Positions 10,068-56,968 of a stretch of 64,000 nucleotides of DNA are shown piece by piece. This DNA is from Nonomuraea thailandensis (GTDB lineage Bacteria; Actinomycetota; Actinomycetes; Streptosporangiales; Streptosporangiaceae): NCBI RefSeq assembly GCF_024172165.1, contig NZ_JAMZEB010000002.1:1881501-1945500 (forward strand). Reading direction: 5' to 3'. Position 1 is the stretch's first letter. Every line of letters starts with the position of its first letter. A program made the position numbers and the translations under genes. Below the pieces are notes generated by a model that did no database searches, was not told where the DNA came from, and saw only the letters and a list, made by a program, of their open reading frames with translations.

Positions 10068-10135
10068 GCCCGGGGCAGGAAGCCGGAAGGTGACCCGTGG
10101 CCGCGCACCGGCGCCGGTGCGCGGCCACGGGGGTG

Positions 10136-13385: not shown

Positions 13386-13702
13386 ATGAACGATTTTCAG
13401 GCCATCGCCGACCGCGTCGAGATCGAGGCGCTGCGCGGCGAGTTCACCGATGCGGCGATGATGCGTGACTACGACCGCCTGGCGTCGCTGTTCACGCCGG
13501 ACGGCGTGCTGCGGATGCCCGACATCCCGGCCGAGCTCGCCGGGCCCGAGGAGATCCGCGCGTGGGGGCGGCGGGTGCCGGGCTTCGTGGAGTTCCTGGT
13601 GCAGACGACGCATCCGGGCGTCATCCGGATCGAGGGGTCAGGTACCACGACACCACGCCGCTGACGGGCTCACCGCCCGAGGCCGCCGAGCCCGCCCCGT
13701 GA
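13386..13702 (+). pseudogene. SnoaL-like (NTF2 fold) protein with internal deletion
   Basis: The frame from ATG 13386 (AGCAGGAAA upstream) begins MNDFQAIADRVEIEALRGEF, then ASLFTPDGVLRMPD and VEFLVQTTHPGVIRIEG. This is a typical N-terminal half of a SnoaL-like polyketide-cyclase/NTF2-fold protein of about 145 residues, but the frame stops at 13664. From 13643 a different frame encodes YHDTTPLTGSPPEAAEPAP and stops at 13702, which looks like the normal C-terminal tail of this family. About 40-45 codons in the middle are therefore missing and the ends are joined out of frame. The protein would lack the second half of its beta sheet. Confidence 0.65.
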
Positions 13703-13804
13703 GCGGGAGCCGAAGGGGCAGGGGGTGGTGCGCCATGGCGCACCCATGCTCTACCGTCTGCTGAGCGACCGATGAACGCCCACCGCGCGGAAGGACTCTC
13801 TCGC

Positions 13805-13840
13805 ATGGAACACGAGCACACGGCGGGAGGCGTGCGATGA
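13805..13840 (+). CDS. 11-codon mini-ORF coupled to peptide deformylase
   Basis: ATG GAA CAC ... CGA TGA: an 11-codon frame whose TGA overlaps the ATG of the peptide deformylase gene (ATGA). It contains that gene's GGGAGG ribosome site. It may couple translation or be chance; the mini-ORF itself has no strong ribosome site. Confidence 0.25.
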   Translation: MEHEHTAGGVR

Positions 13841-14439
13841 GCGGCGCGGCGAAGCTGGTCGAGCAGGTGCAGGCCCTCCTGGCGGCGCCCAGACCCTGGT
13901 CCGTCACGCAGGTCGGCGACCCGGTGCTGCGCCGCCCGGCCGAGCCGTACGACGGCCAGCTCCCCGACGCCCTGCTGCGCGAGCTGCTCGACGCGATGTT
14001 CCGGCACCTGCCGGGCGTGGGCGTGGGGCTGGCCGCTCCGCAGGTCGGCATCCCCCTGGCGCTGGCGGTCATCGAGGACCCCGCCGAGGTGCCGGCGGAG
14101 ATCGCCGCCGAGCGGGAGCGCGCGCCGCAACCGCGGCTGGAGCTCGTCAACCCCGTCGTGACCCCTCTCGGGTCGCGTTACCGCGCCTTCTACGAGGGGT
14201 GCCTGAGCGTCGAGGGGCTGACCGCCGTCGTCGCGCGGCATGCGCTGGTCCGGCTGTCGGCCGCCGACGGCGGCGGGCGGCCGTACGAGCTGGAGCTGTC
14301 CGGCTGGCCGGCCCGCATCGCCCAGCACGAGACCGACCACCTGAACGGCGTCCTGTACCTCGACCGGGCCGAGCCGCGCTCGTTGTCCACCGTCGCCAAC
14401 CACGAGCGTTTCCAGGCCCCGCGCCCCGGCGCCGGGTGA
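13837..14439 (+). CDS. def: Peptide deformylase
   Basis: 200 residues with all three deformylase motifs in order: GVGLAAPQVG (motif 1), EGCLSV (motif 2, metal-binding Cys) and QHETDHLNG (motif 3, HExxH with catalytic Glu and two metal His). It removes the formyl group from nascent proteins in the cytoplasm using Fe2+ or a similar metal. GGGAGG lies 6 nt before the ATG. It begins with about 30 extra residues, as in many actinobacterial paralogues. It stands apart from fmt and other translation genes, so it is probably a second copy; secondary deformylases can confer resistance to actinonin-type inhibitors (family knowledge, not shown here). Confidence 0.95.
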   Translation: MSGAAKLVEQVQALLAAPRPWSVTQVGDPVLRRPAEPYDGQLPDALLRELLDAMFRHLPGVGVGLAAPQVGIPLALAVIEDPAEVPAEIAAERERAPQPRLELVNPVVTPLGSRYRAFYEGCLSVEGLTAVVARHALVRLSAADGGGRPYELELSGWPARIAQHETDHLNGVLYLDRAEPRSLSTVANHERFQAPRPGAG

Positions 14440-39099: not shown

Positions 39100-41199
39100 T
39101 CACCGGGGACGAGCGGATGCCCGCGCGATGGCGCCGGCCGCCTCCTCCGCCGCGACGAGGCACCGATGGAGCGAGCCGCCGCTGTCTCCCGCGTCCCCGA
39201 TCACGTGCACCCCGAGGCGTGGCCGCAGTTCCTCGAAGGCCGCGAGCAGGGTGGAGAGCGGGCGGGAGGGCGGGACGACACCGTGGGAGACCAGCAGCGG
39301 GCCCGGCAGCGGGCCCGGCAGGGGCAGCCATTCCGCGTGGTCTCCCGAGCGTACGAGCAGGCGCTCGGGCTCGATGGCCGAGATCGTGGACTCCAGCAGG
39401 ATGCGCACCCTGGGGTTCTCCGTGAGCCGCGGCACCAGGAGGATCTTGGCGCGGCGGCCGACCTCCGGGGCCAGGCTCGGCTGGGAGCCGATGATCAGCA
39501 CCTCCGCCCCGCCGGCGGCGAGGTGGTCCGCCACGGCGACGCCCTCGCGGTCGGCGCCCCACACGACGCAGGAGCGGGGCGCCTCCAGGCCCAGCGTGAG
39601 CCAGTCGCGCACGTCGTGGACGTGCGGCGACCGGACACCGGGAACGTCGGGCATCCGGCCGACGCCGCCGGTGGCCACCACGATCGCGTCCGCCTCGGGC
39701 AGGTAGGCGGTGGGCGCGAGCCTGCCGCGGGCGGCCTCGACGCCGGTGCGCACGCTCACGCCGAGCCGGTCCAGCTCGGCGACGTACCACTGCAGCAGGC
39801 GGCGATGCTCCGGGTACGCGCGCAGCCGCCCGGCGAGCGCCAGCCGCCCGCCGACCCGCTCCTCGCGCTCCACCACCTGGACGCGATACCCCGGCCCGGC
39901 CAGCAACCGTGCCGCTTCCAGCCCGGCCGGTCCCGCGCCGATCACCAGCACCGCGCCCTGGCCGGAAGCCGTGGTGGGCGGCGTGCCCCGCCTGAGGGGC
40001 GCGCCGTGGTCCGCGGGTGTGTCGGGCGGCGCGTCCGGCGGCGCGGGCAGGGCGGGCGCCACATCCCGCCTCGCGGGCGCGGTGACCGGGCCCAGGTACT
40101 CGCGCCCCGCCCGCACGTTGACCGCGCACGGGATCGGCTCCCCGGTGCCGAGCCGGTCGATGCACAGGTTGCAGGCGATGCACGGCCGGTAGCCGCGGCC
40201 GGCGAGGGCGTGGCGGGGGAAGTCGGGATCGGCGTGCAGGGCGCGGGCCAGGGAGACGAAGTCGGCCAGCCCGCCCGCCACGACGGCCTCGGCGCTCTCC
40301 GGCGTGTTGATCCGCCCGGCGACCCCCACCGGCAGCCCGAGCGCCCGGTACCGCCCGGCGTACGGGGCGAGCAGCCCGGGCTCCCACTCGGCGGGCTGGA
40401 TGCTCCACTGCCCCGCCTCGTACGACCCGGCCGAGACGTCGAGGAAGTCCAGCAGGTCCAGGCGGGTGCGTGAGATCAGCTCGAACGTGCGCCCCGCGGT
40501 CAGCCCGCCCTCGAACCCCTCGTGCGCGGACAGCCGCAGGCCGACGGCCACCCCGGGGCCGGCCTGCTCGCGGACGGCCTCGACGACCAGCCCGAGGAAG
40601 CGGAGAGGGTGGGCGAACTCGTCGGCACGCAGGTTGAACGCGGGGGAGAGGAACTGGTGGACGAGGTATCCGTGCGCCCCGTGGATCGAGATCACGTCCA
40701 CCCCCGCCTCACGGCAGCGCCGCGCGGCCTGCCCGTAGGCGGCGGCCAGCTCGTACACCTCGGCGGCCGGCGCCTCCCGCGGCAGCTCGCCGCCGGCGGG
40801 CAGGCACGGGACGGGGGAGGGCGCGACCGGCTGGAAGCCGCTGACCGCGCTCTGGGCGGTGCGGCCGCCGTGGTTGAGCTCGACGCCGAGCAGGGCGCCG
40901 CCGTCGTGCACGGCCCCGGCCAGCCGGGCGAGCCCGGGGACGCACGCGTCCGTGTCCACGCCGAGCTGCCGCAGCCGTCCCTTGCCGTCCGCGCGGACGT
41001 AGGCGGCCTCGGCGAACACCAGTGCCGCGCCACCCCGCGCCCGCCGGGCGAGGTAGGCGGTGTAGCGGCCGGTGACGGCGCCGTCGGGCTCGCAGTAGTT
41101 GCGCTCCATGGGGGCCGCGACGAACCGGTTGCGCAGCCGTACGGGACCCAGGGTCAGAGGGCGGCCCACGGCCGGCCCGCCCTCGCTCACCAGTGACAA
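39100..41199 (-). CDS. Two-domain OYE/FAD oxidoreductase, 2,4-dienoyl-CoA reductase family
   Basis: 699 residues. N-terminal FMN TIM barrel (about 1-350; SIHGAHGYLVHQFLSPAFN), 4Fe-4S cysteines CIACNLC with a fourth Cys in GEPIPCAVN, then FAD- and NAD(P)-binding Rossmann regions (AVLVIGAGPAGLEAARLL; a second at CVVWGADREGVAVADHL). Such enzymes pass electrons from NAD(P)H via FAD and Fe-S to FMN to reduce enones or dienoyl-CoA. The TTG at 41199 has GGAG 5 nt upstream; a GTG three codons in is the alternative. It is divergent from aroE in the hydroaromatic cluster, so a cyclic enone or enoate substrate is plausible (inference). Confidence 0.85.
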   Translation of the reverse strand: MSLVSEGGPAVGRPLTLGPVRLRNRFVAAPMERNYCEPDGAVTGRYTAYLARRARGGAALVFAEAAYVRADGKGRLRQLGVDTDACVPGLARLAGAVHDGGALLGVELNHGGRTAQSAVSGFQPVAPSPVPCLPAGGELPREAPAAEVYELAAAYGQAARRCREAGVDVISIHGAHGYLVHQFLSPAFNLRADEFAHPLRFLGLVVEAVREQAGPGVAVGLRLSAHEGFEGGLTAGRTFELISRTRLDLLDFLDVSAGSYEAGQWSIQPAEWEPGLLAPYAGRYRALGLPVGVAGRINTPESAEAVVAGGLADFVSLARALHADPDFPRHALAGRGYRPCIACNLCIDRLGTGEPIPCAVNVRAGREYLGPVTAPARRDVAPALPAPPDAPPDTPADHGAPLRRGTPPTTASGQGAVLVIGAGPAGLEAARLLAGPGYRVQVVEREERVGGRLALAGRLRAYPEHRRLLQWYVAELDRLGVSVRTGVEAARGRLAPTAYLPEADAIVVATGGVGRMPDVPGVRSPHVHDVRDWLTLGLEAPRSCVVWGADREGVAVADHLAAGGAEVLIIGSQPSLAPEVGRRAKILLVPRLTENPRVRILLESTISAIEPERLLVRSGDHAEWLPLPGPLPGPLLVSHGVVPPSRPLSTLLAAFEELRPRLGVHVIGDAGDSGGSLHRCLVAAEEAAGAIARASARPR

Positions 41200-41284
41200 C
41201 CGTGCTCCGTCCTAGAGTACGGACTAGATAGTCCACAAGGCTCCACGCGCGGCGCCGTGAAGTCAAGAGTCATGTCTAGCCAGC

Positions 41285-41306
41285 TAACTCACTAGTACGT
41301 ACATTA
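41285..41306. promoter_or_regulatory. Shared cluster operator, copy 1 (aroE/OYE intergenic)
   Basis: 22 bp beginning TAACTCACTAGT and ending ACGTACATTA. It is identical at 19 of 22 positions to the reverse complement of 44009-44030 and at 16 of 20 to 52792-52811. Its core ACTAGT with ACGT on one side is an imperfect palindrome. A related half-site, ACGGACTAG, begins at 41219 nearer the OYE gene. Confidence 0.65.
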
Positions 41307-41341
41307 AGAAAACCGCAGCACCTGCTTGAAAGGACGATGTG

Positions 41342-42187
41342 ATGCACTCATTCCTGGTCGGGCTGATCGGCTCGGGCATCGGGCCCTCCTGGAGCCCGCC
41401 GTTGCACGAGCAGGAGGCCGTGCACCACGGGCTGCACTACGTCTACCGGCTGCTCGACACCGACCGGATGGGCGGCGAGGTGGGGGAGCTGGTCCGCACG
41501 GCGCGCAGGTTCGGCTACGACGGGCTCAACATCACCCACCCCTGCAAGCAGGCCGTCATCCCGCACCTGGACGAGTTGTCACCGGACGCCCGCATGCTCG
41601 GCGCGGTCAACACCGTGGTGTTCGACGGCGAGCGGGCCGTCGGCCACAACACGGACTGGACGGGCTTCGCCGAGTCGTTCGCGCGGGGCCTGCCGGACGT
41701 GCCCACCCGCAGGATCGTGCAGCTCGGCGCCGGCGGCGCGGGAGCCGCGGTCGCGCACGCGCTGCTCACGATGGGCGCCGACCGGATCACCCTGGTCGAC
41801 GCCGATCCGGCGCGGGCGGGCGCGCTCGCCGGCGAGCTGGCCGCCCGCTTCGGCGCGGGCCGGGCCCGCCCCGCCGGCACGGACGAGCTGCCCGGGCTGC
41901 TGGCCGGTGCCGACGGGCTGGTGCACGCGACCCCGACCGGCATGGCCCACCATCCGGGCCTGCCGCTGCCCGCCGAGCTGCTCCACCCCGGCCTGTGGGT
42001 GGCCGACATCGTCTACCGGCCGCTGGAGACCGAGCTGCTCAGGCAGGCGCGGGCGATCGGCTGCCGGACGCTGGACGGCGGCGGCATGGTCGTCTTCCAG
42101 GCCGTGCACGCGTTCAGGTTGTTCACCGGCCGCGAGCCGGACGCCGAGCGGATGTTCGCCCACCTGACCGATCTCATCGCCGTCTGA
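41342..42187 (+). CDS. aroE: Shikimate dehydrogenase family protein
   Basis: 281 residues. Substrate-binding domain with SWSPPLHEQ and GLNITHPCKQ (catalytic Lys), NTDWTGF (catalytic Asp), then an NAD(P) domain with QLGAGGAGAAVAHALL and the closing GGGMVVFQAVHAFRLFTG. It interconverts shikimate (or quinate) and the 3-dehydro acid. Placed directly before a dehydroshikimate dehydratase and a shikimate-type permease, it is most likely catabolic rather than the biosynthetic AroE. ATG 41342, with AAAGGA 7 nt upstream, is chosen over the preceding GTG. Confidence 0.88.
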   Translation: MHSFLVGLIGSGIGPSWSPPLHEQEAVHHGLHYVYRLLDTDRMGGEVGELVRTARRFGYDGLNITHPCKQAVIPHLDELSPDARMLGAVNTVVFDGERAVGHNTDWTGFAESFARGLPDVPTRRIVQLGAGGAGAAVAHALLTMGADRITLVDADPARAGALAGELAARFGAGRARPAGTDELPGLLAGADGLVHATPTGMAHHPGLPLPAELLHPGLWVADIVYRPLETELLRQARAIGCRTLDGGGMVVFQAVHAFRLFTGREPDAERMFAHLTDLIAV

Positions 42188-42222
42188 CATCACCGTCCCG
42201 AAGCGCCGTCCAAGGAGGAATC

Positions 42223-43989
42223 GTGCGTAAGTCCATCGCCACCGTGTCGGTGAGCGGCACTCTCGCGGAGAAACTGGAGGCGATCGCCGCCGCCGGGTTC
42301 GACGGGGTGGAGATCTTCGAGAACGACCTGCTGGCCTGCCCGCTCTCGCCCGAGGAGGTCCGGGCCAGGGCCGCCGACCTCGGCCTCGGCATCGACCTCT
42401 ACCAGCCGTTCCGCGACTTCGAGGCGGTGCCTGCCGACGTGCTCGCGGGCAACCTGCGCCGGGCCGAGCGCAAGTTCAGGGTGATGGAGCGGCTCGGCGC
42501 GGACCTGCTGCTGGTCTGCTCGAACGTCTCGCCGGGCGCGATCGGCGACGACGAGCTGGCCGCCGAGCAGCTCCGGCTGCTGGCCGAGCGGGCCGCCGAG
42601 CACGGCGTGCGCATCGCCTACGAGGCGCTGGCCTGGGGCCGGCACGTCAACGAGTACCTGCACGCCTGGCGCATCGTGCGCATGGCCGACCACCCGGGCC
42701 TGGGCACCTGCCTGGACAGCTTCCACATCCTGTCGCGCGGCTCCGACCCGATCGGCATCGAGGCCATCCCGGGGGAGAAGATCTTCTTCCTGCAGCTCGC
42801 TGACGCGCCGCTGCTGGCCATGGACGTGCTGCAGTGGAGCCGCCACTACCGCTGCTTCCCCGGGCAGGGCAACTTCGACCTGGCCGGGCTGACCGCCAGC
42901 GTGCTGCGGGCGGGATACACGGGGCCGCTGTCGCTGGAGGTGTTCAACGACGTCTTCCGCCAGGCGTCCGTGGAGCGTACCGCGCTGGACGGCATGCGCT
43001 CGCTCATCGCGCTGGAGCAGAGCCTGGACGGCGTGAGCCACCCCGCCGTGCCCGCCGGCTTCGCCTTCGCCGAGCTGGCCGACACCGGCACCCTCGGCGG
43101 GCTGCTGAGCGCGCTCGGCTTCGCCCGGGCGGGCGCGCACGCGAGCAAGCCGGTCGAGCTGTGGTCGCAGGGGGAGGCCAGGATCCTGCTCAACGCCGGC
43201 GGCCAGGCCTCCCACGAGGGCCCGGCCCTGGTCGCGATCGGCCTGGACAGCCCCGACCCCGGTGGCGCCGTCAAGCACGCCGGCTCGCTGCTGTCACCCG
43301 TCCTGCCCCGCGAGCGCGCCCCGGAGGACGCGCCGCTGGACGCGATCGCCGCCCCCGACGGCACCGAGATCTTCTTCTGCGACACCGCCTGGCTCGCCGA
43401 CTTCGCCCAGGGCGCACCCGCCGTAGCCGGCCCCGGCCAGGGCGCGCCCGCCGACGGCGGGATCACCCGCATCGACCACGTGGCGCTCACCCAGCCGCTG
43501 CACTACTTCGACGAGGCCGCCCTGTTCTACCGCAGCGTGCTCGGCCTGCGCCCGCAGGAGAGCCTGGAGCTGCCGGACCCGTACGGCCTGCTGCGCAGCA
43601 AGGCGATGTCGGCCCCCGACGGCGCGGTCCGCATGGTGGTGAACATCGCCCAGGTCGGCGCCGGCCAGCACCCCTGGCAACACCTCGCGCTGGCCTGCGA
43701 CGACGTCGTGGCCGTGGCCCGCAGGCTCCGGGATGAGCACCCGGACCTGCTGCTGCCCATCCCGGACAACTACTACGACGACCTGGAGGCCCGCTACGAG
43801 GTCGATCCCGAGCTGCGCCACCTCGGCGTGCTCTACGACCGCGACGGGCACGGCGGCGAGTTCCTGCACCTGTACACGGTCACCGCGGGCCGGGTGTTCT
43901 TCGAGCTCGTCCAGCGGATCGGCGGGTACCAGGGTTACGGGGCCGGCAACGCCCCCATCCGGCTCGCCGTCCAGCACGCGGGTGCTTAA
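42223..43989 (+). CDS. quiC: 3-dehydroshikimate dehydratase fused to an HPPD-like domain
   Basis: 588 residues. About 1-270: sugar-phosphate-isomerase-like TIM barrel (GFDGVEIFENDLLACPLSPE; CLDSFHIL; FLQLADAP) as in AsbF/QuiC dehydratases, which convert 3-dehydroshikimate to protocatechuate using a divalent metal. About 290-588: two vicinal-oxygen-chelate repeats like 4-hydroxyphenylpyruvate dioxygenase, with the possible metal set His (RIDHVALTQ), His (WQHLALACDD) and Glu (FFELVQRIGG) kept. This fusion is known for QuiC1 of Pseudomonas, where the second domain's role is unsettled. GTG start with AAGGAGG 5 nt upstream; 35 bp after aroE, same operon. Confidence 0.88.
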   Translation: MRKSIATVSVSGTLAEKLEAIAAAGFDGVEIFENDLLACPLSPEEVRARAADLGLGIDLYQPFRDFEAVPADVLAGNLRRAERKFRVMERLGADLLLVCSNVSPGAIGDDELAAEQLRLLAERAAEHGVRIAYEALAWGRHVNEYLHAWRIVRMADHPGLGTCLDSFHILSRGSDPIGIEAIPGEKIFFLQLADAPLLAMDVLQWSRHYRCFPGQGNFDLAGLTASVLRAGYTGPLSLEVFNDVFRQASVERTALDGMRSLIALEQSLDGVSHPAVPAGFAFAELADTGTLGGLLSALGFARAGAHASKPVELWSQGEARILLNAGGQASHEGPALVAIGLDSPDPGGAVKHAGSLLSPVLPRERAPEDAPLDAIAAPDGTEIFFCDTAWLADFAQGAPAVAGPGQGAPADGGITRIDHVALTQPLHYFDEAALFYRSVLGLRPQESLELPDPYGLLRSKAMSAPDGAVRMVVNIAQVGAGQHPWQHLALACDDVVAVARRLRDEHPDLLLPIPDNYYDDLEARYEVDPELRHLGVLYDRDGHGGEFLHLYTVTAGRVFFELVQRIGGYQGYGAGNAPIRLAVQHAGA

Positions 43990-44008
43990 TCCTGCGGCAA
44001 CACCCTTG

Positions 44009-44030
44009 TAATGTACGAACCGGTGAGTTA
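44009..44030. promoter_or_regulatory. Shared cluster operator, copy 2 (before the MHS permease)
   Basis: 22 bp whose reverse complement begins TAACTCACCGGT and ends TCGTACATTA, differing from copy 1 at only three positions. It lies 50 bp before the permease start, in an otherwise featureless 90-bp gap, suggesting the permease has its own regulated promoter. Confidence 0.65.
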
Positions 44031-44079
44031 GTTTCCTGTCACCGCACTACCCCCCGACGTCACCGTGAGGAGCAAAATT

Positions 44080-45390
44080 GTGACGGTGCAGGGCAAACCG
44101 CGTAAAGCGGCCGTTGCTGCCTGGATAGGCAGTGCCTTGGAGTATTACGACTTCTTCATCTACGGCACGGCCGCCGCGCTGGTCTTCAACAAGATTTTCT
44201 TCCCGTCCTCCTCGCCCGCCACGGGGACGCTGCTCGCGCTGGCCACGTTCGGCGTCGGCTACCTCGCCAGGCCCGTGGGCGCGTTCGTCCTCGGGCACAT
44301 CGGTGACAAGTTCGGCCGCAAGCGCGTGCTGGTCACCACGTTGCTGCTGATGGGCGGCTCCACCTTCCTGGTCGGCTGCCTGCCCACCTACGACCAGGTC
44401 GGCGTGCTCGCGCCCATCCTGCTCGTGGTGCTCCGCCTGCTGCAGGGCTTCTCCGTCTCGGGCGAGCAGGCCGGCGCCAACTCCATGACGCTGGAGCACG
44501 CGCCCGAAGGCCGGCGCGCCTACTACACCAGCTTCACCCTCAACGGCACTCAGGCCGGCCAGATCATCGCCACCGCGATCTTCCTGCCCATCGCGGCCCT
44601 CCCCGAGGAGCAGCTGCTGAGCTGGGGCTGGCGGGTGCCGTTCTGGCTGAGCGTCTTCGTGGCCGTCGTCGGGGTCGTCATCCGCCGCACGCTGGAGGAG
44701 ACCCCCGCGTTCGAGCAGGAGGTCGCCACCAACACCGTGGCGAAGATGCCGCTCGCCGTGCTCTTCCGCGAGCAGTGGCGCGACGTGCTGCGCGTCGTCG
44801 TCGCGGCGGTCATCGCCTCGGTCAGCACGATCTTCACCGTGCACGCCCTGTCGTACGCGGTCAACACGATGGGCCTGGAACGCAGCCCGATGCTGTGGGT
44901 CGGCGTGCTGGCCAACGTCGCCGCCGTGATCACGATCCCGCTGTGGGGCAAGCTGTCGGACCGGGTCGGCCGCAAGCCGGTCTTCATCGGCGGCTCGCTC
45001 GGCTGCGCGGTGCTGATGTTCGCCTACCTGTGGTCGATCTCCGCCGGCAACTACTTCCTGATCTTCCTGGCCGGCATCCTGATGTTCGGCGTGGTGCACA
45101 GCGCCACCAGCGCCGTGTGGCCCTCCTTCTACGGCGAGATGTTCACCACCCGCGTCCGCCTGTCCGGCATGGCGATCGGCACCCAGATCGGTTTCGCCAT
45201 CGCCGGGTTCGCGCCCACCGTGGCCACCGCGGTGGCCGGCACCGGCCCCGAGAGCTGGCTCGGCGTCTCGGTCATCACCGCGGTCGTCTGCCTGATCAAC
45301 GTGGCCGCCGTCGCGACCGCCAGGGAGACGTACAAGGTGCCGACCGACCAGCTCGGGCTCAAGCCGCTCGACGGACGGGTGAAGGTGTGA
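44080..45390 (+). CDS. MHS-family MFS permease, ShiA-like
   Basis: 436 residues, about 12 membrane helices. It opens AAVAAWIGSALEYYDFFIYG, a hallmark of the metabolite:H+ symporter family (ShiA, KgtP, PcaT), and has GHIGDKFGRKRVL and GKLSDRVGRKPVF loop motifs. It imports a carboxylate with protons. Neighbouring aroE and dehydroshikimate dehydratase genes point to shikimate, dehydroshikimate or quinate. The GTG at 44080, with GAGGAG 7 nt upstream, is preferred to the GTG at 44065. Its last bases overlap the next gene's GTG. Confidence 0.88.
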   Translation: MTVQGKPRKAAVAAWIGSALEYYDFFIYGTAAALVFNKIFFPSSSPATGTLLALATFGVGYLARPVGAFVLGHIGDKFGRKRVLVTTLLLMGGSTFLVGCLPTYDQVGVLAPILLVVLRLLQGFSVSGEQAGANSMTLEHAPEGRRAYYTSFTLNGTQAGQIIATAIFLPIAALPEEQLLSWGWRVPFWLSVFVAVVGVVIRRTLEETPAFEQEVATNTVAKMPLAVLFREQWRDVLRVVVAAVIASVSTIFTVHALSYAVNTMGLERSPMLWVGVLANVAAVITIPLWGKLSDRVGRKPVFIGGSLGCAVLMFAYLWSISAGNYFLIFLAGILMFGVVHSATSAVWPSFYGEMFTTRVRLSGMAIGTQIGFAIAGFAPTVATAVAGTGPESWLGVSVITAVVCLINVAAVATARETYKVPTDQLGLKPLDGRVKV

Positions 45391-46172
45391 GCACACACCC
45401 CCGTTACACCGTCTACGCCGTGCGCTACGCGCAGCGCGACGCCCGGCGCGGCGAGCACTTCCACGGCTACGAGCCCGGCGGGGAGAGCTCCCACCCCACC
45501 TCCTACTACGTCTGGGCGGCCGTCTCCGCGCAGCACACGGTCGTCGTCGACACCGGCATCGCGCCGGAGCGGGCGGCTCGCGTCCAGGGCCTCGACTACC
45601 GCTGCTCGCCCGTCGAGGCCCTGGCCGAGCTGGGCATCGCCGCCGACTCGGTCGGCCACGTGGTGCTCACCCACCTGCACTACGACCACACCGGCACCGC
45701 CCGCGACTTCCCCCGCGCCCGCTACGTGGTGCAGCAGGCCGAGCTGGACTACTGGACGGGCCCCTGGGCGGAGCGGATCACCCGCGAGCGCTGGCTGCTC
45801 GAGGACGACGACCTCGCCCACCTGACCGCCGCCACGAAGGACGGGCGGGCGCTCGTGCTGAACGGCGACGCGGCCCTGCTGCCCGGCCTGAGCGTGCACC
45901 TCGTCGGCGGGCACACGGCCGGCATGCAGGTCGTGCGGGTCGAGACGGCCCGCGGCCCCGTCGTGCTCGCCTCCGACGCCAGCCACTTCTACGAGAACAT
46001 CGAGAGCGACCGCCCCTTCCCGATCCTGCACAGCATGACCGGCATGTACGGCGCCTTCGACCGCATCAAGGAGCTGGCCGGCGGCCCCGGGCTCGTGGTC
46101 GCCGGCCATGACCCGCTGGTGCTCGAACGGTTCCCGCTCCGCACCCCCGACGTCGCGGTGATCAGCCCGTGA
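45387..46172 (+). CDS. Metallo-beta-lactamase-fold hydrolase, lactonase-like
   Basis: 261 residues. Dinuclear zinc motif VVLTHLHYDHTG (HxHxDH), further ligands in LVGGHTAGMQ and LASDASHFYEN, and a late VVAGHDP. It belongs to the N-acyl-homoserine-lactonase-like branch. No signal peptide. Coupled to the permease by a GTGA overlap, it most likely hydrolyses a lactone or ester form of the imported acid (for example a quinate lactone or ester); quorum quenching is the alternative. It converges on the quinoprotein gene with an 11-bp overlap of 3' ends. Confidence 0.82.
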   Translation: MSTHPRYTVYAVRYAQRDARRGEHFHGYEPGGESSHPTSYYVWAAVSAQHTVVVDTGIAPERAARVQGLDYRCSPVEALAELGIAADSVGHVVLTHLHYDHTGTARDFPRARYVVQQAELDYWTGPWAERITRERWLLEDDDLAHLTAATKDGRALVLNGDAALLPGLSVHLVGGHTAGMQVVRVETARGPVVLASDASHFYENIESDRPFPILHSMTGMYGAFDRIKELAGGPGLVVAGHDPLVLERFPLRTPDVAVISP

Positions 46173-48228
46173 CCTCGATCTTGCCCGTGGGCCGCGGGCT
46201 GTAGGAGTCGTTGAAGAAGTACTCGCCCGGCTTGGTGAACGTGTACTGGAAGGACTCGCCCGGCTTCAGCCTGACGTCGAACAGGCCCTCGAAGAACTGG
46301 GTGGCCCCGTGCACGTGCACGTTGCCGGGCGGGTTGACGAACGTCACCGTGGTCCCCACCGGCACCCGCAGATGGGTGGGGGCCATGGCGTTGACGGCGG
46401 TGGACTCCACCGCGCCGACCTGCCCGTTCTCGTACACCCGGGCGAGCACGACCGTGTTGTTCACCGTCGCGCCGTCCACCGGCTGGCCGGAGACCGGGCG
46501 GCGGACCACCGGCGGGGGCGGGGCGGGCGCCGGGGGGACGGCGCCGCCGAGCTTGAAGGCCCACAGGTGGTCGCCGCGCGGCGCCGAGTTGCCGTACGGG
46601 ATGCCGGTGCCGCCCGCGTAGACCGCGACGTACTGCTCGCCGTCGACCTCGTAGGCGATGGGGCTGCTGCTGACGCCGGCGCCCGTCTGCCAGCGCCACA
46701 GCTCGCGCCCGCCGCGGGCGTCCAGGCAGAGCAGGTTGCCGTCGGGCTGGCCGATGAACAGCAGGTCGGAGGCCGTGGTCAGGATGCCGTTGCCGTGGGC
46801 CAGCGAGTACGGCAGGTTCCGCTTCCACCGCACCCGGTTCGTCGAGGGGTCCACGGCCACCACGCCCCCGGTCATGTACTCGCCGGGCGGGCGCAGCCCG
46901 TTCGACGACTCGGTCAGCGAGTGGGCGGCGGCCACGTAGCCGAAGCCCGTGTACACCAGGCGGGTGCTGTGGCTGTAGGACTGGTGGTTCCAGTCGGCGC
47001 CGCCGCCGTGGCCGGGGATGGTGAGGATCGGCTCGTCCCAGTGCGGCGTGTAGAGGGAGCCGATCGTGTAGTTCGGCACGGCCCGGTGCGGCAGGCCGGG
47101 CACCTCGGTGCCCAGCGGCTGCGCCACCGGCCGCAGCTCGGTCCAGCCGCCCTGGCGCGGGAACGGCTGCGTCGGCCACGTCTTCTGCCGGGGCTCCTGC
47201 GGCACGGGCACCTCGTCGATGCCCAGCGGGGCCGAGCCGTCGGCGCGGTCGAGGATGTAGTACATGCCGGTCTTGCTGCCGTACACGACGAGCTTGCGCT
47301 GCCGGCCGCGCACGCGGGCGTCGACCAGCACGGGCGCCATGACGTTGTCCATGTCCCAGATGTCGTGGTGGACGGACTGGAAGTGCCACCGGTAGGCGCC
47401 GGTCTTCAGGTCCATGGCCACGATCGAGTTGGCGAACAGGTTCTGGCCGCCGCGTTCCGACCCGTCCTGCGAGGACTTGCTGCCCCGGGCGTTGCCGAAC
47501 GTCCAGTAGACCAGCCCCAGCTCCGCGTCGATCGCGCAGTGCATCCACGGCGTGGCCCCGCCGACCTGCCAGGAGTCGCCCTCCCAGGTGTCGCCGCCGA
47601 TCTCGCCGGGGGCGGCCGTGCCCCAGAAGTGCCACGCCAGGTCACCGGTCGCGGCGTCGAAGGCGAGCGCGGCGCCGCGCGGGCCGTCGTTGGTGCCGCA
47701 GTAGAGCATGCCGTCGTGGTAGGTGACCGCGACCTTCTCCAGGTTGCCGTACCCGTTGTGCTGCCGCTCCCAGACCACCTGCCCCGTGCGCTGGTCGAGG
47801 GCGATCAGCCAGTTGTCGTTGGCGCAGGTGTAGACCCGGCCGTCGCCGACCGCGACGCCGCGGCGGGTGACCGCCCCGCGCGTCTGCTCGTACTTCCAGA
47901 TCGTCGCCCCGGTACGGCCGTCCACCGCCACGACGTTGCCCAGGGCCGACTCGACGAACAGGACGCCGTCCACGGCCACGGCGGTGCTCTGGCTGTTGCC
48001 CGCCATCAGCCCGCCCTCGATGTGGTTCACCCACGCGGCCCGCAGCCGCCTGACGTTGCCGCGGTGCAGGCCGCGCAGCGCCGTGTAGTTCTGGTTCGCC
48101 AGGTTCCCGCCGACCTTCGGGAAGTTCCGATCGGCACGCCGGGTGACCGCGGCGGCGGGGCTCTGACCTGCTCCGGCGAGCGCGACCGCCGCGACCGCGC
48201 CCGCGAGTAACTCTCTGCGACGGACCAT
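46162..48228 (-). CDS. Tat-exported PQQ-type quinoprotein with cupredoxin-like tail
   Basis: 688 residues. Twin-arginine signal at the start (MVRRRELLAGAVAAVALAG). About 40-560 is an eight-bladed PQQ propeller with repeated Trp-docking blades (TGATIWKYEQ, TGQVVWERQ, TGDLAWHFWG, RGGRELWRWQTG) and a GGDTWEGDSWQVGG segment. After a Pro linker, a cupredoxin-like domain (VPVGTTVTFVNP; HVHGATQFF; EYFFNDSYSP) lacks the copper-ligand Cys. No heme-c CxxCH. It probably oxidises an alcohol, perhaps quinate or shikimate, outside the membrane. AAAGGA lies 6 nt before the ATG, and it starts 14 bp after the LivF stop, so it is the last gene of the Liv operon. PQQ synthesis genes are not in the window. Confidence 0.78.
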   Translation of the reverse strand: MVRRRELLAGAVAAVALAGAGQSPAAAVTRRADRNFPKVGGNLANQNYTALRGLHRGNVRRLRAAWVNHIEGGLMAGNSQSTAVAVDGVLFVESALGNVVAVDGRTGATIWKYEQTRGAVTRRGVAVGDGRVYTCANDNWLIALDQRTGQVVWERQHNGYGNLEKVAVTYHDGMLYCGTNDGPRGAALAFDAATGDLAWHFWGTAAPGEIGGDTWEGDSWQVGGATPWMHCAIDAELGLVYWTFGNARGSKSSQDGSERGGQNLFANSIVAMDLKTGAYRWHFQSVHHDIWDMDNVMAPVLVDARVRGRQRKLVVYGSKTGMYYILDRADGSAPLGIDEVPVPQEPRQKTWPTQPFPRQGGWTELRPVAQPLGTEVPGLPHRAVPNYTIGSLYTPHWDEPILTIPGHGGGADWNHQSYSHSTRLVYTGFGYVAAAHSLTESSNGLRPPGEYMTGGVVAVDPSTNRVRWKRNLPYSLAHGNGILTTASDLLFIGQPDGNLLCLDARGGRELWRWQTGAGVSSSPIAYEVDGEQYVAVYAGGTGIPYGNSAPRGDHLWAFKLGGAVPPAPAPPPPVVRRPVSGQPVDGATVNNTVVLARVYENGQVGAVESTAVNAMAPTHLRVPVGTTVTFVNPPGNVHVHGATQFFEGLFDVRLKPGESFQYTFTKPGEYFFNDSYSPRPTGKIEVTG

Positions 48229-48242
48229 GGACCGTCCTTTCT

Positions 48243-48944
48243 CTAGAGGCCGAGATAGATGCGTCGGACCTGGGGGTCGTCGCGGAGCTCCGCGGAGGTG
48301 CCGCTGGCGGCGATCTCGCCGTTCTCCATGACCAGACAGGTGGTGGTGACGTCGAAGGTGAGCTTGGCGTTCTGCTCGACGAGCAGGATGGCCAGGCCGC
48401 CCGCGTTGAGCTTCTTCAGCACGCCGGCGATGTCGCCGACGAGCTTCGGCGACAACCCCATGGACGGCTCGTCCAGCAGCATCACCTTGGGCCGGCACAT
48501 CATGGCGCGGCCGACGGCCAGCATCTGCTGCTGCCCGCCGGACAGCGCGCCGGCCAGCCGGCCGCGCATCTCGCCCAGCACCGGGAACAGCTCGTACACC
48601 TCGTCGATCGGGGTGCGCTTCCAGCTGCTGGTGTACGCGCCGAGCAGCAGGTTCTTCTCCACCGTGAGCCCGGGGAAGACGTGCCGGCCCTCGGGCACGT
48701 AGCCGATGCCGTGCCGGACCAGCGTGTGCGCGGGCGCGCGCAGCAGGTCGCGCTCGCCGAACCGGATCGCCTCGGCCTGCCGGGGCGCCAGCCCCATGAT
48801 CGCCTTGAGGGTGGAGGACTTGCCGGCGCCGTTCGCGCCGATGATGCCCAGCGACTGGCCCGGCTCCACGGTGAAGGACACGTCGTGGGCGGCGCGGACG
48901 CCGCCGTAGTGCACCGACAGCCCCTCGACGGTCAGGGTGGTCAT
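48243..48944 (-). CDS. livF: Branched-chain-type ABC transporter ATPase (LivF)
   Basis: 233 residues: Walker A GANGAGKSS, signature LSGGQQQML, Walker B VMLLDEPSMGLSP, and the LivF feature LLVEQNAKLTFDV. It energises a type II Liv importer together with the fused permease/ATPase. The ATG at 48944 has GAGGAGG 7 nt upstream and overlaps the previous stop by 4 bp. Liv systems outside amino-acid operons often import aromatic or carboxylic acids. Confidence 0.92.
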   Translation of the reverse strand: MTTLTVEGLSVHYGGVRAAHDVSFTVEPGQSLGIIGANGAGKSSTLKAIMGLAPRQAEAIRFGERDLLRAPAHTLVRHGIGYVPEGRHVFPGLTVEKNLLLGAYTSSWKRTPIDEVYELFPVLGEMRGRLAGALSGGQQQMLAVGRAMMCRPKVMLLDEPSMGLSPKLVGDIAGVLKKLNAGGLAILLVEQNAKLTFDVTTTCLVMENGEIAASGTSAELRDDPQVRRIYLGL

Positions 48945-50746
48945 CGGGTCGCCTCCTCGACAGCGGCCTCGGCGGTCTCCTCGGTCGGCGCGGCCATCGA
49001 GTCGCCCAGGTAGGCGGCGACGACGTCCGGGTGCACCGCGACCTCGGCGGGCGGGCCGTCGGCGATCACCCTGCCGCTGGACAGCACGGTCACCTGGTCG
49101 CACAGGGACATGACCAGGCCCATGTTGTGCTCGATGATGATCACGGTGACGCCCGAGTCCCTGATCGAGCGGACGATGTCGGCGAGCTGGCGCACCTCCT
49201 CCCCGTTGAGCCCGGCGGCGGGCTCGTCCAGCAGCAGCAGGGCGGGGGACATGGCCATGGCGCGGGCCAGCTCGATGCGGCGCTGGATGCCGTAGGGCAG
49301 CGAGCGCGGCTCGGCGTCGGCGACCTCGGCCAGCCCGAAGCGTTCGAGCAGCTCCGCGGTCCGCCGGTGCAGCGCCCGCTCGTAGCCCAGCACCTTCCAC
49401 GGCAGGACGGCGTAGCGCCAGATCCAGGTGGTGCGGGTGCGGTCCAGCGCGAGCAGGAGGTTCTCGCGCACGCTGAGATCCTCGAACAGGCGCAGGTTCT
49501 GGAACGTGCGGGCCACGCCGCGCAGCGAGAGCCGGTACGGCGCCATCCCGGTCGCCTCCCGCCCGGCCAGGACCACGGATCCCTCGGTGGGGTCGTAGAA
49601 GCCGCTGATCACGTTGAACAACGTCGTCTTGCCGGAGCCGTTCGGCCCCACGATGCCGCGGATCTGGCCCGTGGGCACGGTGAGCGACACCTTGTCGAGC
49701 GCCACCAGGCCCTTGAACCGCTTGGTCACCTCCCGCACGTCCAGCGCGACCTCCTCGGCGGAGGCGGGCGCGGGGTCGTAGGGCCGGAACGCGCCGAGCT
49801 GGGCTCGCGAGCCGCCGGTCCGCCGGCGCAGCAGCGCCCGGAGCTGCCCGGGCAGGCCCGCCAGCCCCTTGGGCGCGAACACCACCACGAGCACCACGAC
49901 GAGCCCGTAGCCGAGCTGCGCGTAACCCGAGGCGTCCAGCAGCGCCTCCCTGACCAGCGCCAGCGCGATCGCGCCGACGACGCAGCCCAGGATGCTGCTC
50001 CGCCCGCCGATGATCACCATGGCGAGCAGCAGGAACATGTTGGCGATGTTGAAGGACTCGGGGGCGACGAACCGGATCAGCCCCGCGTACAGGATGCCGG
50101 CCAGGCCGCCGTACAGGCCGGACAGCACGAACGCGGTCATCCGCAGCAGCGGGATCTCCGCGCCCAGGGCCCCGGCCGCCAGGTCGTCGTCCCGCATCGC
50201 GCGCAGCCGGCGGCCCAGCGGCGAGCGGGTGACCAGCAGCGCGAACGCCAGCGCGATCGCGAAGACGATCAGCTCGACGTAGTAGAACAGGTAACCGCTG
50301 GACAGGTCGATGCCGAACATCGGCGGCACCGGGATGTCGCTGATGCCCTCGGCCCGCCCGGCGATGTGCGCGTTGGTCACCCAGTTGGTGAACGCCAGCG
50401 CCAGCCCCAGCGTGACGATGCCGAGATAGTGCGACTGCATGCGCAGCGCGGGGATGCCGACCAGCACGCCGAACACCACGGCGGTGAGGACGGCCAGCAC
50501 GGAGGCGGTCCAGAAGCCGAAGCCGGCCTCCGTGGTGAGGATGGCCACCGTGTACGCGCCGACGCCGAAGAAGGCGACCTGGGCCAGGTTGATCTGCCCG
50601 GCCACGCCCATGGTCAGGCCGAGCCCGATGGCCAGGATCGCGAAGATGATCGCGACGTCGGCGACGTGGATGGCGTACCCGCCCAGGCCGTAGGGCAGCA
50701 GCCAGGCCGCGATCGCGGCGATGGCGATGAGCGCCACTCGTTTCAT
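48941..50746 (-). CDS. LivM-LivG fusion: Liv permease plus ATPase
   Basis: 601 residues. About 1-320: LivM permease with about nine helices and ILAIGLGLTMGVAGQINLAQ. About 335-590: LivG ATPase with GIVGPNGSGKTTLFNVISGF, signature region SLPYGIQRRIELARAM, Walker B LLLLDEPAAGLN and IIIEHNMGLVMSLCD. The fusion is common in actinomycetes. Overlaps the LivH stop by 4 bp (ATGA). Together with LivH, LivF and the binding protein it forms a complete importer. Confidence 0.93.
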   Translation of the reverse strand: MKRVALIAIAAIAAWLLPYGLGGYAIHVADVAIIFAILAIGLGLTMGVAGQINLAQVAFFGVGAYTVAILTTEAGFGFWTASVLAVLTAVVFGVLVGIPALRMQSHYLGIVTLGLALAFTNWVTNAHIAGRAEGISDIPVPPMFGIDLSSGYLFYYVELIVFAIALAFALLVTRSPLGRRLRAMRDDDLAAGALGAEIPLLRMTAFVLSGLYGGLAGILYAGLIRFVAPESFNIANMFLLLAMVIIGGRSSILGCVVGAIALALVREALLDASGYAQLGYGLVVVLVVVFAPKGLAGLPGQLRALLRRRTGGSRAQLGAFRPYDPAPASAEEVALDVREVTKRFKGLVALDKVSLTVPTGQIRGIVGPNGSGKTTLFNVISGFYDPTEGSVVLAGREATGMAPYRLSLRGVARTFQNLRLFEDLSVRENLLLALDRTRTTWIWRYAVLPWKVLGYERALHRRTAELLERFGLAEVADAEPRSLPYGIQRRIELARAMAMSPALLLLDEPAAGLNGEEVRQLADIVRSIRDSGVTVIIIEHNMGLVMSLCDQVTVLSSGRVIADGPPAEVAVHPDVVAAYLGDSMAAPTEETAEAAVEEATR

Positions 50747-51612
50747 GCGCGGTTCACCGTTGCCTCTCCGAAGATGCCGGTGGGGCGGATCATGACGATG
50801 ACGGCGAAGACCAGGAACGTGACCAGCTCGGAGTACTCCTGGAAGTTGCCCGCGGCGAAGGAGTCGAGCAGCCCGAAGGCCAGGCCGCCGACGATCGCGC
50901 CGGGCATGCTGCCGAAGCCGCCCAGCATGGCCGCGGCGAAGCCCTTGATGCCCAGGGTGCCGCCCATGGTCGGGTTCACGTACAGCATGGGGCCGATGAG
51001 GCTGCCCGCCAGCGCGGCCAGGCCGGCGCCGATGGCGAAGGCCATGGCGTTGCTGCGGCCGACGTGGATGCCGACCGCGGTGGCGGCCTGGTGGTCCATG
51101 GCGACCGCCTGCATGGCCGCGCCCCGCTTCGTGCGCTGCAGGAACAGCGCCAGCAGCCCGGTCGCGGCGGCGGCCACGGCGATCACCAGCAGGCTGTAGG
51201 TGGGGATGCGGATCCCGGCCACGTCGATCGGCCCCGTGGCGACCGGCGACGGCACCGCGTGCCCGGTCGCCCCCCAGACCAGGACCGCGCCCGCCTCCAG
51301 CACCGCGCCGAAGCCGATGGTGCCGATCAGCATCAGCGTGAAGTCCTTGTTCTCCAGCGGGCGCAGGAACCGCTCGATGACCAGGCCGATCAGCGCGGTG
51401 ACCGCGATCGCGACCACGACGGCCACCGCGAAGGGCAGCTTGCTGGCCATGTAGAAGGTGGAGGCGGCGTACGCGCCGATCATCACGACGCTGCCGTGGG
51501 CGAAGTTGACCAGGCCCATGGTGCGGTAGACGATCGAGAACCCCATCGCCACCAGCGCGTACACCGCTCCGAACGTGACCCCGCCGATCAGGGTCTGAAG
51601 GAAGACCTGCAC
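50743..51612 (-). CDS. livH: Branched-chain-type ABC transporter permease (LivH)
   Basis: 289 residues with about eight helices and the LivH opening LIGGVTFGAVYALVAMGFSI and VYRTMGLVNFAHGSVVMIGA. Partner of the LivM half in the membrane channel. GTG start, 1 bp after the binding-protein stop codon, so tightly coupled. Confidence 0.93.
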   Translation of the reverse strand: MQVFLQTLIGGVTFGAVYALVAMGFSIVYRTMGLVNFAHGSVVMIGAYAASTFYMASKLPFAVAVVVAIAVTALIGLVIERFLRPLENKDFTLMLIGTIGFGAVLEAGAVLVWGATGHAVPSPVATGPIDVAGIRIPTYSLLVIAVAAAATGLLALFLQRTKRGAAMQAVAMDHQAATAVGIHVGRSNAMAFAIGAGLAALAGSLIGPMLYVNPTMGGTLGIKGFAAAMLGGFGSMPGAIVGGLAFGLLDSFAAGNFQEYSELVTFLVFAVIVMIRPTGIFGEATVNRA

Positions 51613-51613
51613 G

Positions 51614-52756
51614 TCAGCTCGCGGCCTCGGGCACGACCTTGCCGTCCTTGACCAGGCCGATCTTGGTTTCGTGGATGCCGACGCCGTTGGCGTCGTAGTT
51701 GTAGCTGCCGAGCAGCCCGGCGCGCTTGACCCCGCGGATGGCGTCGGCCAGCTTCTGGCCGCCCTCGCCGTTGGTCTGCTTGAGCGCCTCGATGAGGATG
51801 GACGCCCCGTCGTAGGCCTTGGCGACGTGCATGCGGGCGTCCTCGTTGTAGGCGGCCTTGTACTTGGCGGCGAACTCCTTGATCTCCGGGGTGGCCTCGT
51901 TGCTCAGGTAGGGGGAGCTGACGATGGTGCCCTCGGCGTTGTCCAGGCCGGCGGTGGTGGCGTACACGTCGGTGCCCACGGGGGCGCCGCCGGCGAAGAC
52001 GGCCTTGATGCCGAGCTCGCGCGCCTGCTTGGCGATCAGCCCTGACTGGACCTCCTCGGCGCCGATGAACAGCACCTCCGGGTCCTGCTCGCGGATCTTG
52101 GCCAGGTTGGAGTTGAAGTCCTTCTGGTCGGGGGTGACGATCTCGTCGGCGGACGGGGTGACGTTCCTGGTCTTGAGCGAGTTGAGGAACGCGTCGTGCT
52201 CGCCGGAGCCGTAGGCGCCGTTGTTGCTGATCAGCGCGATCTTCTTCATGCCCTTGTCGTCGACGAGGTACTTGGCGAGCGTCTCGTCGAAGGTGACGCT
52301 GGTCGGCGCGTTCAGGAAGAGGAACGGGCTCTTCAGCTCGGCGAGCTTGGGCGACTGGCCGGAGGTGATGTTCGGGATCTTGGCGTCCTTGAGGATGGGC
52401 GCCATGGCGAGGGTGACCGCGCTCTCGGCGGTGCCGAGCATCGCGACGTAGCCCTCGGCGGAGATCTTCCTGGCCACGTTGGTGCCGACGGTCGGGTCGC
52501 CCTGGCTGTCGAAGAGGTCGAGCTGGATCTGCCGGCCGCCCACGCCGCCGGCCTTGTTGGCCTCCTCGATGGCGAGCTTGACGCCCTTGTGCTCCCACTG
52601 GCCGAGCGAGCTGAGCTGGCCGCTCTGCGCGTTGACGTTCGCGATCTTGATGGGGCCGGTGGCGGTGGCGCCGGACTCGGCCTGCTGGCCGGGAGGGGCA
52701 CAGGCGGCGAGCGCTATCAGGGCGGCGGCCGCGATGGAGAATCTCGTGAAATGCAC
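51614..52756 (-). CDS. Liv-type substrate-binding lipoprotein
   Basis: 380 residues. Lipoprotein signal with lipobox LAAC (Cys about 19), then a type I periplasmic-binding fold (IKIANVNAQSGQLSSLGQWE; GKKIALISNNGAYGSGEHDA-like segments; RMHVAKAYDGASILIEAL). It captures the ligand on the outer face of the membrane; the ligand is not readable from sequence, but the shared operator and the quinoprotein at the end of the operon suggest a hydroaromatic or aromatic acid. GTG start with GAGGTG 5 nt upstream. First gene of a five-gene operon. Confidence 0.9.
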   Translation of the reverse strand: MHFTRFSIAAAALIALAACAPPGQQAESGATATGPIKIANVNAQSGQLSSLGQWEHKGVKLAIEEANKAGGVGGRQIQLDLFDSQGDPTVGTNVARKISAEGYVAMLGTAESAVTLAMAPILKDAKIPNITSGQSPKLAELKSPFLFLNAPTSVTFDETLAKYLVDDKGMKKIALISNNGAYGSGEHDAFLNSLKTRNVTPSADEIVTPDQKDFNSNLAKIREQDPEVLFIGAEEVQSGLIAKQARELGIKAVFAGGAPVGTDVYATTAGLDNAEGTIVSSPYLSNEATPEIKEFAAKYKAAYNEDARMHVAKAYDGASILIEALKQTNGEGGQKLADAIRGVKRAGLLGSYNYDANGVGIHETKIGLVKDGKVVPEAAS

Positions 52757-52791
52757 GGGTTCACCTCTAGGGGGGTGGGTGAGGTTAATTC

Positions 52792-52811
52792 ACGGACTAG
52801 TACGTTCGTTA
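52792..52811. promoter_or_regulatory. Shared cluster operator, copy 3 (before the Liv operon)
   Basis: ACGGACTAGTACGTTCGTTA, matching copy 1 at 16 of 20 positions and containing the best palindrome of the three (ACGGACTAGTACGT, one mismatched pair). It lies about 36 bp before the binding-protein start. Confidence 0.65.
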
Positions 52812-52866
52812 TAAGCGACGGGACAGGCTGAGGGAATCTCGAACGTGCAACGGTTTCCGCCCGGGA

Positions 52867-56182: not shown

Positions 56183-56968
56183 ATGCCTTCGAACATTGGG
56201 GAGGGCGGGGGCGTACGCAGCGTCCAGCGCGCGTTCGGCATCCTCTCGCTGCTCTCCGAGGACCGGCGGACGCTGACGATCCGCGAGGTCGTCGACGAGA
56301 CCGGCCTGGCCAAGACCACGGCGCTGCGCCTGCTGCAGAGCCTGGAGCACATGGGGCTGCTGTGGGCCACGCCGCAGGGGTTCGCGGCCGGTCCGGCGCT
56401 GTGGCGCTGGGCGCACCTGGCGCGCTCGGCGTGGGAGCTGCCGCCGGAGACCGTCCAGCTCATGCGCGAGCTGGGGGCGCGGCACCGGGAGACCGTCAAC
56501 CTCTACGTGCCGCGCGACGTGCGCCGCGTCTGCGTCGCCCAGCAGGAGAGCCCGCAACCGCTGCGCCACGTGGTGCGCGTCGGTGACGAGCTGCCCCTGT
56601 GGGCCGGCGCCTCCTCGAAGGTGCTGCTGATCGGGGCGCCGGAGCCGCTGCTCGTCAGGGTGGCCCGCTCCTCCCCGTACGGCGAGGCCCACGTGGCGAC
56701 GCTGCGGGCCTGGATCGGCCAGGCGGCGCACGACGGGCACGCGGCCAGCCACGGCGAGCGCGAGCCCGGCCTGTCCGCCGTGGCCGTTCCGATCAACGGC
56801 CCGATCACCGGGTTCGCCGGCGGCGGCACGCGGGCGACCGTGGCGGCGCTGACGCTGAGCGGCCCCACCGTCCGCTTCACCGGGGACCGGGTCCGGGAGT
56901 TCGCCGCGGACCTGCGCGAGGCGGCCGAGCGGATGTCCGAGCGCGGGTTCGACCACCCTCTGACTTGA
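56183..56968 (+). CDS. IclR family transcriptional regulator
   Basis: 261 residues. N-terminal winged helix (RSVQRAFGILSLLSEDRRTL; VDETGLAKTTALRLLQSLEH) and a C-terminal GAF-like effector domain (GASSKVLLIGAPEPL; GLSAVAVPINGPITG). IclR proteins control catabolic operons in response to pathway acids. It sits between the aldehyde dehydrogenase pair (divergent) and the CoA-transferase pair (15 bp downstream, same strand), so it likely controls both. Confidence 0.9.
   Translation: MPSNIGEGGGVRSVQRAFGILSLLSEDRRTLTIREVVDETGLAKTTALRLLQSLEHMGLLWATPQGFAAGPALWRWAHLARSAWELPPETVQLMRELGARHRETVNLYVPRDVRRVCVAQQESPQPLRHVVRVGDELPLWAGASSKVLLIGAPEPLLVRVARSSPYGEAHVATLRAWIGQAAHDGHAASHGEREPGLSAVAVPINGPITGFAGGGTRATVAALTLSGPTVRFTGDRVREFAADLREAAERMSERGFDHPLT

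Follow-up and report, generated by a model that had tools for sequence, protein, structure and literature searches.

Three, and probably four, promoters of a gene cluster in the soil actinomycete Nonomuraea thailandensis appear to share one predicted repressor-binding site, and these elements are very probably operators of a TetR repressor (PF00440 plus PF17938) encoded about 5.0 Mb away, behind the pca (protocatechuate) operon. The cluster lies in the 64,000-nucleotide stretch of contig NZ_JAMZEB010000002.1 analysed here (positions 1,881,501 to 1,945,500), called the window. A preliminary description of this DNA had tied the three promoters into one hydroaromatic regulon by a common operator and had placed the regulator either in the IclR gene at 56.2 kb or outside the window. 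The single regulon is supported by a motif that is confined to the cluster and conserved before orthologous genes; the candidate regulator indeed lies outside the window, and IclR does not fit.

The element is a 26-bp near-palindrome, TAAnnnACGnACYRGTnCGTnnnTTA, drawn from 37 distinct sites of loci L044 to L117 (L-codes denote fetched loci, and G-codes the 54 genomes of the genus set, this one being G000). Operator 1 (41281-41306, + strand) stands before aroE-quiC, operator 2 (44009-44034, - strand) before the genes for an MHS permease and a lactonase, and operator 3 (52786-52811, - strand) before the Liv importer-quinoprotein genes; the operators end about 29 to 45 bp before the likely start codons. 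As claimed earlier, the aroE element at 41285-41306 is identical to the reverse complement of 44009-44030 at 19 of 22 positions and, counted by hand, to 52792-52811 on the Liv side at 16 of 20. The fourth site, ACGGACTAG at 41219, is also present, but what had been called a half-site forms one arm of a complete, degenerate site, operator 4 (41213-41238, without strand assignment), before the gene for an OYE-type oxidoreductase. Two matrices were used for scoring: the first was built from all 37 sites, two Nonomuraea loci among them, and the second from the 33 of those sites that come from genera other than Nonomuraea. The window sites score 42.9, 40.1, 37.0, and 14.3 with the first matrix (for the weak site, 14.3 and 13.3 on its two strands), against a best score of 9.7, and none of 10 or more, in 400 kb of random sequence with the dinucleotide make-up of the window. 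With the second matrix, operators 1 to 4 score 39.0, 42.5, 36.0, and 13.8, and 1 Mb of random sequence gives a best score of 11.6 and two positions of at least 10. Because its score exceeds anything in random sequence, operator 4 reads as a complete though weak site, with the lowest certainty among the four; its counterpart in G053 scores 23.0.

Whole-genome pattern scans (13,765,184 bases) revealed that the motif is not scattered at random over the genome. The 20-bp pattern ACKNACYRGTNCGTWCRTTA, allowing up to 2 mismatches, matches the three window sites only; it was derived from these sites themselves, and the informative part is its absence elsewhere. The 14-bp core ACKNACYRGTNCGT alone occurs at nine places, the six outside the window having G+C-rich flanks unlike those of the operator. 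A looser 24-base pattern with 1 mismatch finds the three window sites and three other places, and its backward control finds none; the extra places reach no more than 1.2 when their two unknown end letters are counted as -3 each, and we estimate at best about 12 for them given ideal ends. Two degenerate patterns thus yielded no further credible site for a wider regulon in this genome. Since credible matches are confined to the window, the regulon here seems to consist of this one cluster. Could the element instead belong to a promoter or be recognized by a sigma factor? The A+T-richness of the sites and their position 29 to 45 bp before start codons would suit such a role; however, the near-palindrome faces either way with respect to the gene it precedes (compare aroE with the permease), is confined to one cluster, and tracks the TetR gene described below, and this explanation is extremely unlikely. 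TetR repressors bind palindromic operators; the site here is conserved and near-palindromic, and the repressor is predicted to bind to it.

Orthologous genes in Nonomuraea, Streptosporangium, Actinomadura, and Streptomyces are likewise preceded by the motif. Among the fetched Nonomuraea loci, a site scoring at least 20 lies within 700 bp upstream of every orthologue (at least 70% identity) of aroE (20/20), the MHS permease (14/14), and the Liv binding protein (12/12), as expected of one regulon, and before the single OYE orthologue (1/1). Nine neighbouring genes serving as controls in the same loci have no such site in 95 cases (LAC 13, LivH 12, LivMG 12, QP 10, TPP 10, ALDH 7, IclR 7, CoAT 4, and quiC 20) within 300 bp, a span that misses sites lying farther upstream. 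Permeases below 70% identity were left out of the count, and those of G035 and G041, for example, also carry sites. Across the genus, 46 of the 54 genomes (this one included) have a site with at most 2 mismatches, many of the 2-mismatch matches looking like chance; some 2-mismatch matches, such as ACGAACCGGTGCGTACGGAA, recur in the genus. In other genera, the site stands before ALDH-TPP-SBP-Liv in Actinomadura (L047), where SBP is the substrate-binding protein, before SBP in Sphaerisporangium (L055), and before aroE in Streptomyces, with a somewhat different version before an MHS-like permease. Five Nonomuraea genomes (G006, G047, G046, G028, and G041; loci L124-L127 and L231) have an additional quiC-like gene outside the cluster (55 to 56% identity), in each case with a site of 29.7 to 34.0, and a distant OYE gene in G006 (L124) is preceded by a site scoring 25.3. 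As these genes carry the same operator, the predicted regulon is wider in these five genomes. Separately, in L206 (G009:C199), a genome without the present TetR, a site of 26.9 (8249-8274) lies between another TetR gene (PF17940) and one for an FAD-binding monooxygenase, and is perhaps a related operator of another regulator.

Which regulator would recognize these sites? In most relatives, a TetR gene is found within the quiC/aroE/permease cluster, behind the same operator, so that a linked regulator gene does stand beside the motif. In four cluster-linked relatives the protein has the N-terminal helix-turn-helix domain PF00440 (E values from 2.2e-12 to 8e-15), together with PF17938 as its ligand-binding C-terminal domain. 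In 78 named loci outside Nonomuraea (L046-L123; L044 and L045, from Nonomuraea, left out), operator (score of at least 18) and TetR (at least 55% identity) agree in 76, with both present in 65 and neither in 11, although these are not independent observations because loci with neither tend to be more distant relatives. The IclR gene of the window (56183-56968), divergent from the ALDH-TPP genes, is by contrast found (at least 55% identity) in 4 of the 78 loci, while the operator is found in 66. As the regulator nearest the Liv operon, IclR might be thought to bind the three sites: it bears weak similarity to PcaR/PcaU (88.7 bits; cut-off, 284.75), excerpts of PMC8222616 mention IclR regulogs that include quinate/shikimate genes, and site 4 is overlapped by a sequence one mismatch away from the IclR consensus. 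However, this consensus, GTNCG-N5-6-CGNAC in the same excerpts, has no exact match at the operators, sites 1 to 3 all having at least 2 mismatches, and no site of at least 20 lies within 300 bp before any of the 7 IclR or 7 ALDH orthologues. Distribution across loci and motif led us to reject IclR as the regulator, and we regard its binding as very unlikely.

Within the genus, this TetR is encoded in 34 of the 54 genomes (E value of at most 1e-40), and a QuiC-like enzyme is also encoded in 34 (E value of at most 1e-120), the two lists being identical genome by genome. An operator with at most 1 mismatch is found in 33 of the 34 TetR-bearing genomes versus 1 of the 20 TetR-less genomes, one of the latter, G033, being only 63% complete; in G030, a 2-mismatch site lies 2.8 kb from its TetR gene. 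In 12 of the 34 genomes, as assembled, the sole TetR gene is not beside quiC: seven copies lie behind pca, those of G004 and G024 beside another MHS permease, that of G021 beside the permease (its quiC being on a different contig), and those of G006 and G007 elsewhere. TetR and the QuiC-like enzyme are thus kept or lost together though not adjacent in these 12 genomes, which speaks for a functional tie rather than mere linkage.

The TetR protein of N. thailandensis (219 amino acids) is encoded at about G000:C2:6949289-6949948, some 5.0 Mb from the operators, and shares 85% identity with the G005 cluster copy (residues 5-220). TetR genes are numerous in the genome (57 matches with an E value of at most 0.001), and site 4 and the Streptomyces permease sites are of a somewhat different type, so that another TetR, or two competing regulators, might be considered. 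However, no other TetR matches comparably, the next one showing 42% identity over 124 residues (E value of 2.9e-14 versus 4.6e-117 for the present copy), and in relatives, linkage to the operator was observed for the present TetR alone, in a survey that was not systematic for other TetR families; we consider this alternative unlikely. Next to another TetR-like match of this genome (5672409-5672747), a palindrome, CAACCAACCAGTTGGTG, lies about 35 to 60 bp before it (G000:C2:5672351-5672374) and is probably the own operator of that other regulator. The predicted model of the Streptosporangium copy of the present TetR is an all-helical TetR (pLDDT, 90.9). Its best solved match, with the same fold, is DIP1788 (3npi), whose title gives no function (198 columns; TM-score, 0.77 to 0.79; 30% identity); RutR (4jyk and others), which according to its title binds uracil, shares the fold at 21 to 22% identity, and neither protein is known here as a regulator of this pathway.

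The TetR gene of N. thailandensis follows pcaDC after a gap of 149 bp, in the same orientation, and is preceded by pcaB, pcaH, a thiolase gene (below the pcaF cut-off), and pcaJ- and pcaI-type genes, and a PcaR-type IclR gene (419.6 bits; cut-off, 284.75) is divergent from this operon. The same pca-linked place is occupied in six more genomes (G010, G017, G018, G028, G037, and G045). In a tree of 48 TetR proteins, comprising all 36 Nonomuraea copies found and 12 others, the seven pca-linked copies group as a single clade (98/95) whose sister is the quiC-linked copy of G040 (98/87), all within an enclosing clade (96/90) otherwise made up mostly of quiC-linked copies, some deeper forks being weak. 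Because the pca-linked copies form one clade among quiC-linked ones, the tree indicates one relocation event that left the operators in place. No such TetR gene occurs within the approximately 1.5 kb fetched at the pcaDC end of G026, G031, G040, and G047 or of the more distant G002 and G005, and no pcaDC was found in G053 at the threshold of that search. All seven pca-linked genomes retain an aroE-type and a permease-type site with 0 mismatches to the pattern, and six of them a Liv-type site with 0 mismatches, none being listed for G017. Where relatives carry the TetR gene, 19 bp separate quiC from operator 2 in the window. Since no operator was found near the moved gene (no site of at least 10 at the seven pca-linked loci; best score of -0.3 in 19 kb here), its self-regulation was probably lost. 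In G006 and G007, the TetR gene has other surroundings, with no pca gene among the few neighbours scanned and no operator of at least 12. Two TetR copies were observed in G049 and in G050; in the latter (L204), copies at 9620-10270 and 13401-14063 flank aroE-quiC and are not sisters in the tree, and one of them was therefore probably acquired.

TetR proteins mostly repress transcription. Without inducer, one or two TetR dimers would occupy the 26-bp near-palindrome and block the promoter, shutting down the aroE-quiC, permease-lactonase, and Liv-quinoprotein operons and, more weakly, OYE; an intermediate of the pathway would then release TetR. In quiC-linked relatives, the TetR gene follows or faces an operator and thus probably controls itself. 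A tentative and rather doubtful extension is that relocation and loss of the own operator rewired the circuit: the repressor would be made alongside the enzymes of protocatechuate use. Protocatechuate is what the QuiC-like enzyme is expected to yield, and it would thereby raise the repressor of its own producers, exchanging self-repression for downstream feedback, while the operators 5 Mb away would be kept almost unchanged under selection.

Several points weigh against a TetR repressor acting at these operators. The operators, their conservation, their co-occurrence with TetR, and the relocation are read directly from sequence, while binding, repression, effector, and substrate are inferred from it. 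A sigma-70 promoter scan of the three intergenic stretches around the operators recognized none. The loci of the upstream counts were mostly fetched because a site or TetR is present there, which makes the contrast between genes more telling than the full scores. Among the 78 loci, on part of which the matrix was trained, the fetched stretch of L047 has operators without TetR, and L078 has TetR without an operator on its 6.8-kb contig. G043 carries a perfect operator (L202, G043:C1 9598-9623) with neither TetR nor quiC; it precedes a citrate-synthase C-terminal fragment, with no cluster gene in 20 kb, and this orphan is probably a deletion scar. Finally, the co-occurrence is bound up with phylogeny and with whether the cluster is present at all, since the TetR-less genomes also lack QuiC.

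The genes under the predicted operators give some indication of the substrate. The OYE/FadH-type flavoenzyme (39100-41199, - strand; open reading frame from the first TTG) has PF00724 and Pyr_redox_2 domains and stays below the cut-offs of NCBIfam equivalogs. The aroE-type shikimate/quinate dehydrogenase (41339-42187, + strand) passes its model NF009201 (435 bits; cut-off, 235). It is followed by a QuiC/QsuB-like 3-dehydroshikimate dehydratase with an HPPD-like C-terminal half (42223-43989, + strand; start chosen by eye; AP_endonuc_2 and glyoxalase domains), which matches equivalog NF042435 over its full length (E value of 1.2e-178) at 595.6 bits, so that it is like QuiC, below the equivalog threshold of 1200. 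The MHS-family permease (44080-45390, + strand; MFS_1/Sugar_tr) reaches 311.8 bits with a shikimate-transporter model (cut-off, 538), and its stop overlaps by 4 bp a metallo-beta-lactamase-fold, lactonase-like hydrolase gene (45387-46172, + strand). On the - strand lie genes for the Liv-type substrate-binding protein (51614-52756; Peripla_BP_6), for LivH, a fused LivM-LivG, and LivF of the importer (48243-51612; BPD_transp_2 and ABC_tran), and for an exported PQQ-type quinoprotein (46162-48228; PF01011), which begins 14 nucleotides behind the LivF stop (start read by hand) and matches a methanol/ethanol-family model best and the glucose/quinate/shikimate family more weakly, both below cut-off. 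Given the permease overlap and the short LivF gap, the lactonase is probably under operator 2 and the quinoprotein under operator 3. Neither ALDH nor TPP, upstream of operator 3, is preceded by a site of at least 9 in this genome. Among the Liv promoter sequences compared, a second block, AAACCGTTGnnnGTTCGAnATT (window 52835-52856, - strand), is conserved upstream of operator 3; it has a single match in the genome when up to 2 mismatches are allowed and may be an activator or promoter element. The name hydroaromatic, used in the preliminary description, rests on gene families, and while the AroE model is passed, it stays an inference because the matches to the QuiC and shikimate-transporter models fall short of the curated thresholds. 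A type-II dehydroquinase gene between operator and aroE in Streptosporangium L046 and in G053 fits quinate or dehydroquinate as substrate, and plant acids such as quinate or shikimate are the likely substrates of the cluster.

The closest described counterpart is the QsuR regulon of Corynebacterium glutamicum, likewise a set of quinate/shikimate-use genes in an actinobacterium, whose regulator gene is antiparallel to its cluster (excerpts of PMC11258901), as the TetR gene is in Streptomyces. QsuR, however, is described there as a LysR-type activator responding to chorismate, in contrast to the TetR-type presumed repressor here; 66 of the 78 named loci have a linked regulator of the TetR type, unlike in a QsuR-type regulon, in a screen that did not include LysR genes. 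The IclR regulators PcaR, PcaU, and PobR control the beta-ketoadipate pathway, which is the next pathway, and belong to another protein family with another DNA motif; no operator of the present kind lies near pca here. Among the matches listed from full-text literature, with subscription journals outside its scope, there was no TetR regulator of quinate/shikimate genes and nothing relevant on regulator relocation. The parts are ordinary, and the identity of the regulator and its relocation appear to be new.

These results name a likely regulator of hydroaromatic-acid use in a large actinomycete group, from a family other than that of the described QsuR, and with the predicted operator given, the regulon becomes readable from sequence. 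The TetR-operator pair could be developed as a sensor for its ligand. The seven genomes with a moved regulator and unchanged operators would represent a natural experiment on how a local repressor circuit fares once its regulator gene has moved next to the following pathway.

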